A stretch of DNA of 14,886 bases, from assembly GCA_016840905.1 (NCBI GenBank), contig JAEORM010000070.1, positions 1 through 14,886 of the forward strand. Direction: 5' to 3'. This DNA comes from Candidatus Gerdarchaeota archaeon. Its GTDB lineage: Archaea; Asgardarchaeota; Heimdallarchaeia; JABLTI01. Below the pieces are notes generated by a model. The model was not told where the DNA came from. It saw only the letters and a list, made by a program, of their open reading frames with translations, and searched no databases. Both the position numbers and the translations under genes were made by a program. Numbering within the stretch: position 1 is the stretch's first letter; every line of letters starts with the position of its first letter. Below are positions 8,551 to 13,766 of this stretch, piece after piece.

Positions 8551-9390
8551 ATGAAGATAGCTAATTTTAAACAGATAAAGAGAAAAATAACTGTACTCAT
8601 TATTTTGTTTTGCTTCCTATTTTTAGTATTAAACCTTTTTTTTGCAATGGGCGCTAAATCAAAAATTGAAAGTTATCGATGTGAGGATGGGGGTTATAAA
8701 ACCTATTCAAGAAGTAATGATCGTTCATTTTACTGTTATAAAGTAACATTCGAATCGTTTTATGGGAGTGGGTGTAGTGAGCATATTACTGATCCCATGA
8801 ATATTCCTTGGAGTTCTTTTAGTTCAGCAACTATCAAAGTATATGATGAAAACAATACTGAGCTTGCATACACCTATGAAGGTAATACAAAAGTGTTTAT
8901 TTGTTATAGTCGAGATATGGCTATTGCTCTCACGGTACCTTATTATAGCTGGATTTATGAAGTCAATATTTACATCCAATATTATCGAATTTCTCTAGCT
9001 TCGCTTTACAGCTTTATAGGTTGTTTTGCAATGATCCTTTTAGGAACAATATTAATAGTCCGTTTTGAATCAAAAACCATTCTAGAGGGACCTGCATTGG
9101 AAGAGCTTACCTTAGAAGAGCAAAGAAATTCCCGGTTAAAGAATCAAAGATCTTTCAATAGTGAAGTAGGTTATGTTGAAACAATCTATGATGATTCCTT
9201 AAACAACCAAATAGCAATTTGTGCTATCTGCAAATTAGAAATACGTAACACTCAAGTAATTCTCATCTGTAATTATTGTCAATCGCTATTTCATAAAAAT
9301 CATTTAAAACAATGGTTACAAACAACTCGAGAATGTCCAGTTTGCAAAAGAATTATTGGGAAAGATAATGTTACTATCGAAGAATATTGA
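8551..9390 (+). CDS. Membrane-anchored RING-H2 finger protein (putative E3 ubiquitin ligase)
   Basis: 279 aa. The order is: a basic N-terminus (KQIKRK), TM1 at about 13-34, an extracytoplasmic domain of about 110 residues with Cys44, 62, 75 and 118, TM2 at about 149-170, a charged Glu/Arg-rich linker, and a C-terminal RING-H2 finger. Zinc ligands are Cys224, Cys227, Cys240, Cys243, His248, His251, Cys262 and Cys265, with the hallmark FHKNHLKQWL and CPVCKR segments. The positive-inside rule puts both termini in the cytosol, so the RING would face cytosolic E2 enzymes. RING-H2 fingers are E2-binding modules of ubiquitin ligases. Archaeal RING proteins are known chiefly from lineages with ubiquitin-like systems, notably Asgard archaea. 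No ubiquitin, E1 or E2 gene is in the window, so ligase activity is inferred. The four ectodomain cysteines could form two disulfides. The ATG is preceded by AGAGG at 13 bases. MBL follows after 83 bp on the same strand. Confidence 0.88.
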   Translation: MKIANFKQIKRKITVLIILFCFLFLVLNLFFAMGAKSKIESYRCEDGGYKTYSRSNDRSFYCYKVTFESFYGSGCSEHITDPMNIPWSSFSSATIKVYDENNTELAYTYEGNTKVFICYSRDMAIALTVPYYSWIYEVNIYIQYYRISLASLYSFIGCFAMILLGTILIVRFESKTILEGPALEELTLEEQRNSRLKNQRSFNSEVGYVETIYDDSLNNQIAICAICKLEIRNTQVILICNYCQSLFHKNHLKQWLQTTRECPVCKRIIGKDNVTIEEY

Positions 9391-11213: not shown

Positions 11214-12056
11214 TTAGATTGCAGTAAAAGTATCAGTTAGCTTTTTCCTTTTTTCTTCTTCTTCCTCTTTCTTTTTCTTTTGGCTCTCGAATTTTTCTAA
11301 CTCTTTCTTAGCAATTATTCTGACTAGTTCGTTATTATGTTCTAAAGCTGAAGTTAGAATAGAATAAATAATTTCATCTGAAAACCTATCAAGGTCTGAT
11401 AAAGTTTCCTGTATTATTTCTTCATTGTTGCTCTTGAAAATAATATCCAATGAATTCTTCATAGTTTCAGCTTTCATAACTGTTTGTCTTGCTAATTTCC
11501 GAATCTGTGGATTTTGACAGAGTAGGTAATTGAAAAAGAATAAATGATCTTCCTTTGCGATTTCAATTATTACCTTTATAGCAAACTCACAGCAAGAAGG
11601 ATCATTTAGTAATATTTCTAATTTTTTAACTCCCTCGCTGGTTATTTTCCTTTTTTTACCAAGAATTTCACAAGCCTTTTTTCTTGTTTCTTGGTTTTCA
11701 GAAACTAATGCTTCTTCCATGATTGCTAGAAATGGTTTTATTTGACAATTTACCTTTTCTTCGAAAAAATCCTCAAATATTGTTTCAATGGTTCCATTTT
11801 CTACTAAAATTTGTAAATCCCCTTTATTGATCTTACAATTACCATTTGTAAGTACCACTATTTCATTCTCATTGATCTTCTGAATGCCTTCATCATATAA
11901 CACTAAAGTAGTTTCTCCAGTTCCATCTTCTAATTCAAAAATACAAGCAGTTCTTGTTATATTGAGGAATTTTACTTCCTTTGGTGCTGATTTACTATTT
12001 ACCTTTGCAACTAGTTCATTAAAAGAATCGTTTACCTTTAGATCCCCTATCCTCAT
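11214..12056 (-). CDS. RPA/SSB-like OB-fold protein fused to HEAT-like repeats
   Basis: Residues 1-90 resemble an archaeal single-stranded DNA-binding OB fold of the RPA/SOSS-B type: MRIGDLKVND at the start, LVAKVNSKSAPKEV, ELEDGTGETTLVLYDE (41-56), NEIVVLTNGNCKINKGDLQI. Residues about 105-255 are paired amphipathic helices typical of HEAT/ARM repeats (for example NQETRKKACEIL, NPQIRKLARQTV, NNELVRIIAKKEL). A highly charged Lys/Glu segment (253-272, KKKKEEEEEKRKK) ends the protein. The OB part probably binds single-stranded nucleic acid, while the HEAT part would bind a protein. Stand-alone archaeal OB SSBs usually continue into a disordered tail or zinc ribbon, so this fusion is unusual. I chose the ATG at 12056, which fits the MRIGDL family start; an in-frame GTG lies three codons upstream at 12065. 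It is a single gene, divergent from the peptidase at 12270. Confidence 0.82.
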   Translation of the reverse strand: MRIGDLKVNDSFNELVAKVNSKSAPKEVKFLNITRTACIFELEDGTGETTLVLYDEGIQKINENEIVVLTNGNCKINKGDLQILVENGTIETIFEDFFEEKVNCQIKPFLAIMEEALVSENQETRKKACEILGKKRKITSEGVKKLEILLNDPSCCEFAIKVIIEIAKEDHLFFFNYLLCQNPQIRKLARQTVMKAETMKNSLDIIFKSNNEEIIQETLSDLDRFSDEIIYSILTSALEHNNELVRIIAKKELEKFESQKKKKEEEEEKRKKLTDTFTAI

Positions 12057-12198
12057 TTTTTCCACTATTAAATAAAAGGTAAAGAATATTAAAAAGATTA
12101 TTTTATCTAATTTTTATCCGATGTTTCCAATAAAGGTACTTTCATAGTAATTTTTGTCGTTTTTGTTTACATTTAGAAGTGTGTAACATATGAGTCAA

Positions 12199-12269: not shown

Positions 12270-13766
12270 TTGGTTGTAGCAACTATGTCATATTGGGAAC
12301 AAATTAAAACAAAACTCAGTTTAAATCAATGTAAAACCAGCATAACAAAAATCGAGAAAATTTTCTCTAAAAACTCAATAGAATATATTATTTCTCAAAT
12401 AAATTATTTAGAAAAACCAAATGATATAGCAAAGTTACGAAAAATTCAACAAATCCAAGAGGAAAATGGTGGAGGATTCTTTGGTTTGGTTCCACCAGTT
12501 ATAGCGCAAGAAGACAGAATTCCTATACCATCAAATCCTGAACAAATAGTTTCTTTTCTAGAATTTTGTGCTACTAAACGTATGGCTGCTTATGAATTAT
12601 TGATCTCCGCAGATTATGAATCCAAATTTTATGGCAATGATTTTCCAAAATTAAATATCAAAAAACCTTCATCTGAAATTATGAATAGATTACAAATTAA
12701 TTTAAATCTTGATTTTTTTTGCCTAATTATAAATTACTTCCAGAAATCTGAAAAGGATAATTCTCTTCTTAATGAGATTAGTAATCACCCAATTTTGGAG
12801 GAATTGATAACACATAGAAATGGATTAGGTTTTGTTCCAGGTCCTAAATTTACTAAAGAATTCTACAAGAAATTTCTAGAAATGAGTCATTCACAAAATC
12901 CACTTGAAAATATTTGGAAAATGATCCATCCATGGAATTTCTTCGATTTTGCAGATATTTATCAAAATCTTGATGAATATACTAAATTATATGAGATTTT
13001 AAGTGCTAATAAAGAAACGATTGAATCTTTTATTATCTCTGAATTAATTGATTTTATTCCACAAAATAGAGAAATTACTGAGCAAATAGCTTTTAGTGTC
13101 GAATGGGCGATTAAAGGTTGGGCTTCAAAAAAATATGCGGGAGTAAATATTGAATTCTATAAAGATAATTTTGAAAAGCTTTTCAATGTAATCATCCACG
13201 AAGTTTTTCATCGCATACAACTGAAAATCCTACCAAAAGCTAAAAAGGTCGTTAAAAACGAACAAGAGCTAGATTTTGATATTTTGTTTGATTTTGATGA
13301 TTTAGATAGAAGAAATAGCTTGTTATATAAGGCTTTTAGCTACATATTTCTTGAAGGTTCTGCAACTGCATTAGGGAGAAAAAAAGAAAAACCATTTACA
13401 GAAGAAGAAATAAAAAAAATAGAAACTGGCTTATCATTACTAGGTCAAATAATAAAAGAAACAACTCAATTAACATCTAATGATCAACAAGAAGAGATTG
13501 TAAATAAGATAGAAAGTTTGCTAAATCAAGGATTGATATCAAATGGACCATTTTATTCTCTTGGTGAATATATCTCAATTCAATTAATTTCAAAATATGA
13601 TAGATTAGTTTTGGGAAAGATCTTAGAAGAAGGCATTTTTAAATTCTATAATTTATATTTGCATTTAACAGAAGAATTTGATAATTTAATAAAATTTCCA
13701 GATTCGATAAAAGAGACTATCATTTTAAATTCAAAAGCTGTAAATAGTTTTTTGAAAACACAGTAA
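12270..13766 (+). CDS. Putative zinc metallopeptidase (HExxH...E, gluzincin-like) of unknown family
   Basis: 498 aa from TTG (493 from the ATG at 12285). The only recognisable site is IIHEVFHRIQ, with zinc ligands His310 and His314 and catalytic Glu311. After 48 residues comes FLEGSATALG, where Glu362 fits the third ligand of gluzincins; the E-G-x-A context is seen in several putative zinc peptidase families of unknown function. The Asp-rich insert between them (ELDFDILFDFDDLDRRN) is unusual. The 300 residues before the site are mostly helical, with no known domain. They include a GGGFFGLVPPVIAQEDRIPI loop near 67-86 and a FCATKRMAAYELL helix. No signal peptide or TM is seen, so it is probably cytosolic. 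It has no operon partner; the OB-HEAT gene is divergent at 204 bp. The metallopeptidase motif is clear, but the substrate and family are not identified. Confidence 0.75.
   Translation: MVVATMSYWEQIKTKLSLNQCKTSITKIEKIFSKNSIEYIISQINYLEKPNDIAKLRKIQQIQEENGGGFFGLVPPVIAQEDRIPIPSNPEQIVSFLEFCATKRMAAYELLISADYESKFYGNDFPKLNIKKPSSEIMNRLQINLNLDFFCLIINYFQKSEKDNSLLNEISNHPILEELITHRNGLGFVPGPKFTKEFYKKFLEMSHSQNPLENIWKMIHPWNFFDFADIYQNLDEYTKLYEILSANKETIESFIISELIDFIPQNREITEQIAFSVEWAIKGWASKKYAGVNIEFYKDNFEKLFNVIIHEVFHRIQLKILPKAKKVVKNEQELDFDILFDFDDLDRRNSLLYKAFSYIFLEGSATALGRKKEKPFTEEEIKKIETGLSLLGQIIKETTQLTSNDQQEEIVNKIESLLNQGLISNGPFYSLGEYISIQLISKYDRLVLGKILEEGIFKFYNLYLHLTEEFDNLIKFPDSIKETIILNSKAVNSFLKTQ

Follow-up and report, generated by a model that had tools for sequence, protein, structure and literature searches.

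Can an archaeon related to eukaryotes carry a membrane-spanning ubiquitin ligase with a domain exposed outside the cell, a layout usually discussed as eukaryotic? We address this with a gene on contig JAEORM010000070.1 from Candidatus Gerdarchaeota archaeon, analysed over its whole 14,886-nucleotide stretch (the window). The plus-strand open reading frame (ORF) at 8551..9390 (ATG at 8551, TGA at 9390) is single and uninterrupted, and encodes 279 amino acids (aa) ordered as transmembrane segment (TM), ectodomain, TM, linker and RING finger. We favour, with moderate confidence, the reading that it is a membrane-anchored, receptor-like RING-type ubiquitin ligase (E3) of a Heimdallarchaeota-like archaeon, whose activity we infer from the gene itself, its architecture, its ligand set, the positions expected to contact a ubiquitin-conjugating enzyme (E2), the predicted RING fold, the homology of both halves, and the ubiquitin and E2-fold genes of relatives. 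E3 function is likely, if unproven, and the choice of E2, the ligase activity and the role of the ectodomain are presumed.

The RING finger is C-terminal and spans residues 224-265 (9220..9345, plus strand), as delimited by Pfam zf-RING_2 (30.1 bits, against a curated cut-off of 27.3) and by alignments. Its ligands read C224-x2-C227-x12-C240-x2-C243-x4-H248-x2-H251-x10-C262-x2-C265, an exact pattern that appeared in none of 200,000 shuffles of the window protein, while a loose RING pattern appeared in none of 20,000. When aligned to RNF38 and Arkadia, C243 falls on C3 and H248 on H5; the H4 position, two residues past C243, is occupied by Ser245, and His251 replaces C6 at position 6. C240 is probably the fourth site-II ligand, and the likely pairing is C224/C227/H248/H251 in site I and C240/C243/C262/C265 in site II. 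Judged by sequence, the finger is thus a genuine RING of C4H2C2 type and not a RING-H2 (C3H2C3), so that of the complete eight-ligand RING-H2 finger announced in a preliminary description of this DNA the eight ligands and the RING stand, and the RING-H2 class does not. The predicted structure of the window protein contains the cross-brace RING fold that the same description had proposed to look for, and the finger would be expected to bind zinc. That the window protein is a real new RING variant is well supported.

The E2-contact positions are kept in this RING as I226 (the hydrophobic residue before C2), W255 and P263 (after C7). Directly behind the finger, K266 (9346..9348, plus strand) occupies the linchpin Arg/Lys position. 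The ranges of structure matches, which end with residue 271 on 459 in 4v3k_F and residue 270 on 458 in 9q8y_C, place it on RNF38 R454, assuming a gap-free stretch.

How constant such fingers are was examined in the window and 52 further loci, some of them overlapping. A search for the ligand order C-C-C-C-H-[H/C]-C-C, with gap lengths and the choice of His or Cys at position 6 left free, found a RING in 40 of the 53 loci, amounting to 41 distinct RINGs with the window's included, and all 41 have His at position 6 and a spacing of exactly 42 residues. All eight ligands are likewise kept in A1, our family RING alignment and profile of 19 rows, whose rows were chosen for that pattern. When all frames from these 52 further loci were aligned to the RING profile with no ligand-pattern filter, 62 distinct matches resulted: the full set of eight ligands is present in 41, site-I ligands are missing from 12, C240 is absent from 3, and 6 are partial. 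These losses led us to reject ligand invariance across relatives, which had rested on sets picked by ligand pattern. In the 12 site-I losers, C2 is replaced by Ser or Thr and H248 by Ile, Leu, Gln or Lys; 10 of them lack H251 as well, and C240, C243, C262 and C265 are all kept in 12 of 12. That C227 and H248, and usually H251 too, disappear together around four retained cysteines supports the C4H2C2 site pairing. Ligand loss in homologues, a weak point foreseen in the preliminary description, therefore does occur, but it leaves the odds of the ligase reading unchanged because none of the eight is missing from the window protein and the pattern of loss fits the pairing. The non-ligand E2-contact positions are kept nearly everywhere in the unfiltered alignment, the site-I losers included.

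The twelve distinct site-I-loss RINGs lie at loci L061, L062, L071-L074, L082, L084, L093 and L094. They retain the E2-contact Trp and may be one-zinc RINGs, reminiscent of SP-RINGs.

RING relatives are abundant in the lineage. The Asgard homologues sought for the protein were found in all six related genomes (G001-G006, reached through loci matched by the window's aldo/keto reductase), where the window protein as query returned 11-21 matches per genome, 100 in total at E <= 10 and 89 at E <= 0.001, several of them in tandem (for example at G001:C8, G003:C208 and G004:C237). By simple hydropathy, 22 of the 41 distinct RINGs are preceded by two predicted TMs and 16 by none; in 20 of these 22, the two TMs are separated by a hairpin loop of 1-23 residues, against 120 in the window protein and 641 in one 1,006-aa protein. 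Profile A1 matches all 58 genomes in the class of G001 at E <= 1e-8, with a median of 17 matches per genome in a near clade of nine genomes, grouped by their A1 scores, and 7 in the other 49 (TM-less RINGs counted too). Among 5.8 billion proteins it matched 12: the window protein, ten small RING proteins (two named Heimdallarchaeota, three 'hypothetical protein' and five nameless; one, P0002, already a row of A1) and a crocodilian RNF128 (E 1.4e-4), the sole eukaryote-named match. Two of the small proteins deviate: P0010 has Tyr at the C240 position, and P0011, a short frame, has Tyr in place of H248 and lacks C7/C8. The Heimdall two-TM RING proteins (those of A1 and P0002-P0010) resemble the window protein in their C4H2C2 spacing, TM2-linker-RING order, C-terminal RING and mostly net-positive N-terminus, and differ from it in their mostly very short hairpin loops. 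Between TM2 and RING, P0002-P0010 also have in common a stretch around SPYxSVxxDSYxY, predicted to be cytosolic and perhaps a docking or phosphorylation site.

Ahead of its RING the window protein is laid out as follows, all on the plus strand. The first hydrophobic segment, residues 13-31 by hydropathy (8587..8643; modelled helix 3-32), would serve as a signal anchor or signal peptide and is preceded by a K/R-rich stretch of net charge +5. The ectodomain, residues 32-151 (8644..9003), is a predicted eight-stranded beta-sandwich; the second TM follows at residues 152-170 by hydropathy (9004..9060; modelled helix 149-178), and a predicted cytosolic linker of 53 residues, 171-223 (9061..9219), modelled partly with low confidence, leads to the RING. 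The order of ectodomain, TM and RING fits both sequence and model, and its sidedness rests on the +5 N-terminus, the stretch past TM2 carrying -2; we infer a topology with the N-terminus inside, the loop outside and the RING inside. The two-TM protein with a cysteine-containing ectodomain that had first been described thus holds as regards two hydrophobic segments and a 120-residue loop with Cys 44, 62, 75 and 118. A conserved ectodomain disulfide is not supported by the alignment, since only C118 of the four cysteines is conserved in aligned relatives.

Searching with the ectodomain apart from the RING, as had been suggested at the outset, led to RING-less Heimdall proteins of TM-ectodomain-TM layout. 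The ectodomain plus TM2, used as query in the 58 class genomes, gave five weak matches (best E 0.0015); two of the places matched hold three RING-less ORFs of TM-ectodomain-TM layout, 183-189 aa long (two at L099, one at L101). The match, at first only E 0.0015 for one genome, became convincing because the TM1/TM2 register is shared and because a profile of five RING-less proteins, the window excluded, scores the window protein at 33.7 bits, with none of 3,000 segment-wise shuffles exceeding 12.5 (the five proteins had themselves been found with the window as query); on these grounds a chance match was rejected. Weak matches at L100, L102, L103 and L117 were not taken as ectodomain relatives, the frames there being tiny, 608 aa long or broken by stops. 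Ectodomain profile A2 matches 6 of the 58 genomes, two of these matches being a partial frame of 85 aa and a short stretch interrupted by stops. In the protein database, profile A3 matches five proteins, all 183-189 aa long and none listed with a RING domain. These proteins (P0013-P0017 and L099, L101, L112-L115) share the TM1-ectodomain-TM2 layout and the profile match with the window protein, and differ from it in their 183-189 aa, in stopping soon past TM2 and in having no RING; the record of P0016 is named Thorarchaeota. The RING-less genes at L099, L101, L112-L114 and L116 (one of them partial) stand near a DRG/Obg-like GTPase gene, with a small Lrp/AsnC-like gene at some loci, these names having been assigned by eye.

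In a phmmer comparison, the match to the ectodomain relative P0013 covers residues 8-167 of the window protein, and the best two-TM RING relative covers residues 151-269. Since the two ranges overlap at TM2, the window protein reads as a TM-ectodomain-TM module and a TM2-linker-RING module that share TM2. No second fused ectodomain-RING copy was found among 5.8 billion proteins or with profiles A2 in the 58 class genomes and A3 in the protein database. For the whole protein, the window protein itself was the only match among the 5.8 billion proteins, and 8-residue patterns run across genome contigs matched 40 stretches with no relative among them, both searches being dependent on exact short words.

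The archaeal origin first assumed is borne out by a neighbouring gene: the window's 4Fe-4S aldo/keto reductase is 83% identical to that of Heimdallarchaeota 12R2_15, 77% to Asgard HMA_bin2.83 and 74% to Heimdallarchaeota CSMAG_879, all of them metagenome-assembled genomes. By these identities the window comes from a Heimdallarchaeota-like archaeon, and eukaryotic contamination was rejected on the Heimdall type of this neighbour and the Heimdall ligand spacing of the RING.

Ubiquitin-system genes were looked for in the six related genomes. Ubiquitin (PF00240) and the E2 fold (PF00179) each exceed the cut-off in 6 of 6 and in none of 14 controls. The ubiquitin loci encode 77-aa proteins ending in GG, and an E2 of about 155 aa with HPN...C is present in five of the six, G002 having only a longer divergent form; longer E2-fold frames of 229-267 aa occur in all six. 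For the ubiquitin-activating enzyme (E1), PF00899 matches 6 of 6 related genomes but also 12 of 14 controls, and so does not single out a true ubiquitin E1. A neighbouring metallo-beta-lactamase-fold gene of the window is present in 4 of the 6 genomes. Around it, the family RING profile found nothing above 8.7 bits (best E 0.037; in G004 the contig begins at the gene), so the position of the RING gene is not conserved in these stretches.

Several observations weigh against ligase function. The C4H2C2 order is non-standard for an E3. Lys stands at the linchpin position in only 7 of the 41 distinct RINGs, the window's among them, Arg in none, and Leu is commonest; together with the site-I losses in 12 of 62 this means that many paralogues may be weak E3s or non-E3s. 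As the preliminary description had observed, no ubiquitin-cascade gene is nearby, a Pfam scan of the 12 other window ORFs (short overlapping ORFs lying outside the scan) having found no domain of ubiquitin, E1 or E2 type. Inspected by eye, the Heimdall E2 lacks the loop-4 Phe of UbcH5, and the ubiquitin-system genes were read in the six related genomes rather than in the window host's own. The 15 residues past TM2, of net charge -2, are unlike those of most relatives, so that charge does not secure the RING on the inside, and the fused form is a singleton, which leaves a little room for an assembly chimera.

The unusual ligand order, the 34 of 41 family RINGs with no linchpin Lys or Arg, the site-I losses and the lack of a cascade gene among the scanned ORFs would all suit a RING that, stabilised by zinc, serves protein binding or dimerisation within a membrane scaffold and has no ligase activity, like some RING/PHD-like treble clefs. 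We regard such a role as unlikely, though the most serious competitor, since the non-ligand E2-contact positions persist nearly everywhere, even in the site-I losers, the window protein has K266 and all eight ligands, and ubiquitin and E2-fold genes are present in related genomes. The longer E2-fold frames in all six genomes could instead point to a RING that promotes transfer of a non-ubiquitin modifier with a divergent E2-fold protein; this seems improbable to us, as those proteins may be inactive and UEV-like, and the modifier found is ubiquitin with a free GG end (no search for other modifiers was made). The single known fused copy might, finally, be an ectodomain protein and a RING protein joined in the contig by an assembly or fusion artefact, which we consider very improbable: the frame is uninterrupted, both halves fit one shared TM2, and GC content at third codon positions in the gene's parts (0.18-0.29) is close to that of nine window neighbours (0.18-0.27).

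If the favoured ligase reading is right, residues 1-31 would target or anchor the protein, and the beta-sandwich of about 120 residues would lie outside the cell, with the probable task of binding a ligand or a membrane protein as partner. The chain would cross back at TM2, leaving the C4H2C2 RING in the cytosol, where it could dock a ubiquitin-charged E2 via I226, W255 and P263, with K266 as linchpin, such that a bound or neighbouring membrane protein would become ubiquitinated and might then be handed over to the endosomal sorting complex required for transport (ESCRT) system.

The preliminary description had likened the layout to eukaryotic membrane E3 ligases. The likeness extends to the PA-TM-RING ligases (RNF13, RNF128/GRAIL, RMR1), which combine an ectodomain, a TM and a cytosolic RING in the arrangement predicted for the window protein, but these have a protease-associated (PA) domain and the C3H2C3 order. 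Sequence profiles found no PA domain (PF02225), whether in the full-length protein (searched to E <= 1) or in its ectodomain (to E <= 5), and with its C4H2C2 order the window protein is, as far as these profiles tell, not a member. Closer to home, srfp of Caldiarchaeum subterraneum is a reconstituted archaeal RING E3 in which R69A bears on the role of the linchpin-type residue, according to the text available to us (PMC5654768). By the same available text it shares with the window protein the E2-contact Ile and Trp, a Lys/Arg linchpin and a shifted C3/H4 region with an extra Cys, and differs in being a small RING protein in a ubiquitin/E1/E2 operon, classed as RING-H2 by its authors (PMC5654768).

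Across Asgard archaea, zf-RING_2 matches 170 of 227 genomes (168 over the cut-off) and 0 of 14 controls, with a median per genome of 8 in the 58 genomes of the class of G001 and 2 in the other 169, completeness not being controlled. The top 20 matches outside this class comprise 19 distinct strings (8 C4HC3, 3 C4H2C2, 8 other; one locus RING-less by these patterns), and the top 20 inside it also comprise 19 (1 C3H2C3, 2 C4H2C2, 2 C4HC3, 14 other; two loci RING-less), C-x-H-x2-H-x2-H being present in 11 of the 14 other strings by a count made by eye. At loci L119-L158, RING ligand order differs by Asgard lineage, with C4HC3, C-x3-H types, and C-x-H-x2-H-x2-H with His for C6.

A larger ectodomain-TM-RING type of about 1,010 aa occurs in five Heimdall genomes (L159:361-3381, L160, L161, L162, L163) and, searched by the part before the RING, in 8 of the 58 class genomes. 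It combines an ectodomain of about 640 residues, in which a Pfam scan of one protein found no match, with a TM, a linker, zinc-ribbon-like Cys pairs and a C4H2C2 RING, and the four proteins read from the frame start have an N-terminal hydrophobic segment. Like the window protein, these have an outside domain, a TM and a C4H2C2 RING; unlike it, they have the far larger ectodomain and additional Cys pairs ahead of the RING. Given this larger type, receptor-like RING layouts seem to have arisen more than once in the Heimdall lineage. Proteins of about 815 aa at L164:889-3327 and L165:977-3427, whose RING is C-terminal and whose hydrophobic segments lie at about 5-26 and 564-584, are a possible further ectodomain-TM-RING type.

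Asgard archaea have ubiquitin, E2s and a ubiquitin-binding ESCRT-I, the Heimdall ESCRT-I binding ubiquitin in assays, and such binding assays are the basis on which a ubiquitin-to-ESCRT pathway has been proposed (PMC9192718, in the parts available). The main text of that paper does not contain the term 'E3 ligase', nor, in those parts, does it address what first marks membrane proteins with ubiquitin; 'RING' and 'E3 ligase' are absent as whole words from the main text of Eme et al. 2023 (PMC10307638). Membrane-anchored RINGs with outside domains are obvious candidates for this marking, and the family supplies concrete genes; we hypothesize that membrane RINGs feed the Heimdall ESCRT-I. More tentatively, and as a possibility that we hold with some doubt, Heimdallarchaeia may have an expanded set of membrane-anchored or receptor-like RING ubiquitin ligases, built by fusing varied outside domains to a lineage-specific C4H2C2 RING, that choose membrane cargo for a ubiquitin-ESCRT pathway, the window gene being one such fusion. 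If true, signal-controlled ubiquitination of membrane proteins would already be present in prokaryotic relatives of eukaryotes. The family offers a prokaryotic counterpart to ectodomain-TM-RING ligases, and the window protein, from a group close to eukaryotes, may help to show how ubiquitin tagging of membrane proteins arose. Asgard RINGs are already known in outline. In the accessible text of the literature searched (including PMC9192718, PMC5654768, PMC11354881, PMC10307638 and PMC13328587, with subscription papers and most preprints outside its scope), we found no description of Asgard membrane RING proteins, nor of the membrane RING family with C4H2C2 order, its expansion in tandem or the ectodomain fusion.

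Two other genes of the window may be recorded. A 498-aa ORF at 12270-13766 (plus strand) stays under the cut-off for every Pfam family (DUF5053 coming closest, E 0.05), carries an HEVFH (HExxH) motif and is possibly a metallopeptidase. The ORF at 11214-12065 (minus strand) resembles an OB-fold N-terminus of archaeal single-stranded DNA-binding protein (SSB) type joined to HEAT-like repeats, all under curated cut-offs.
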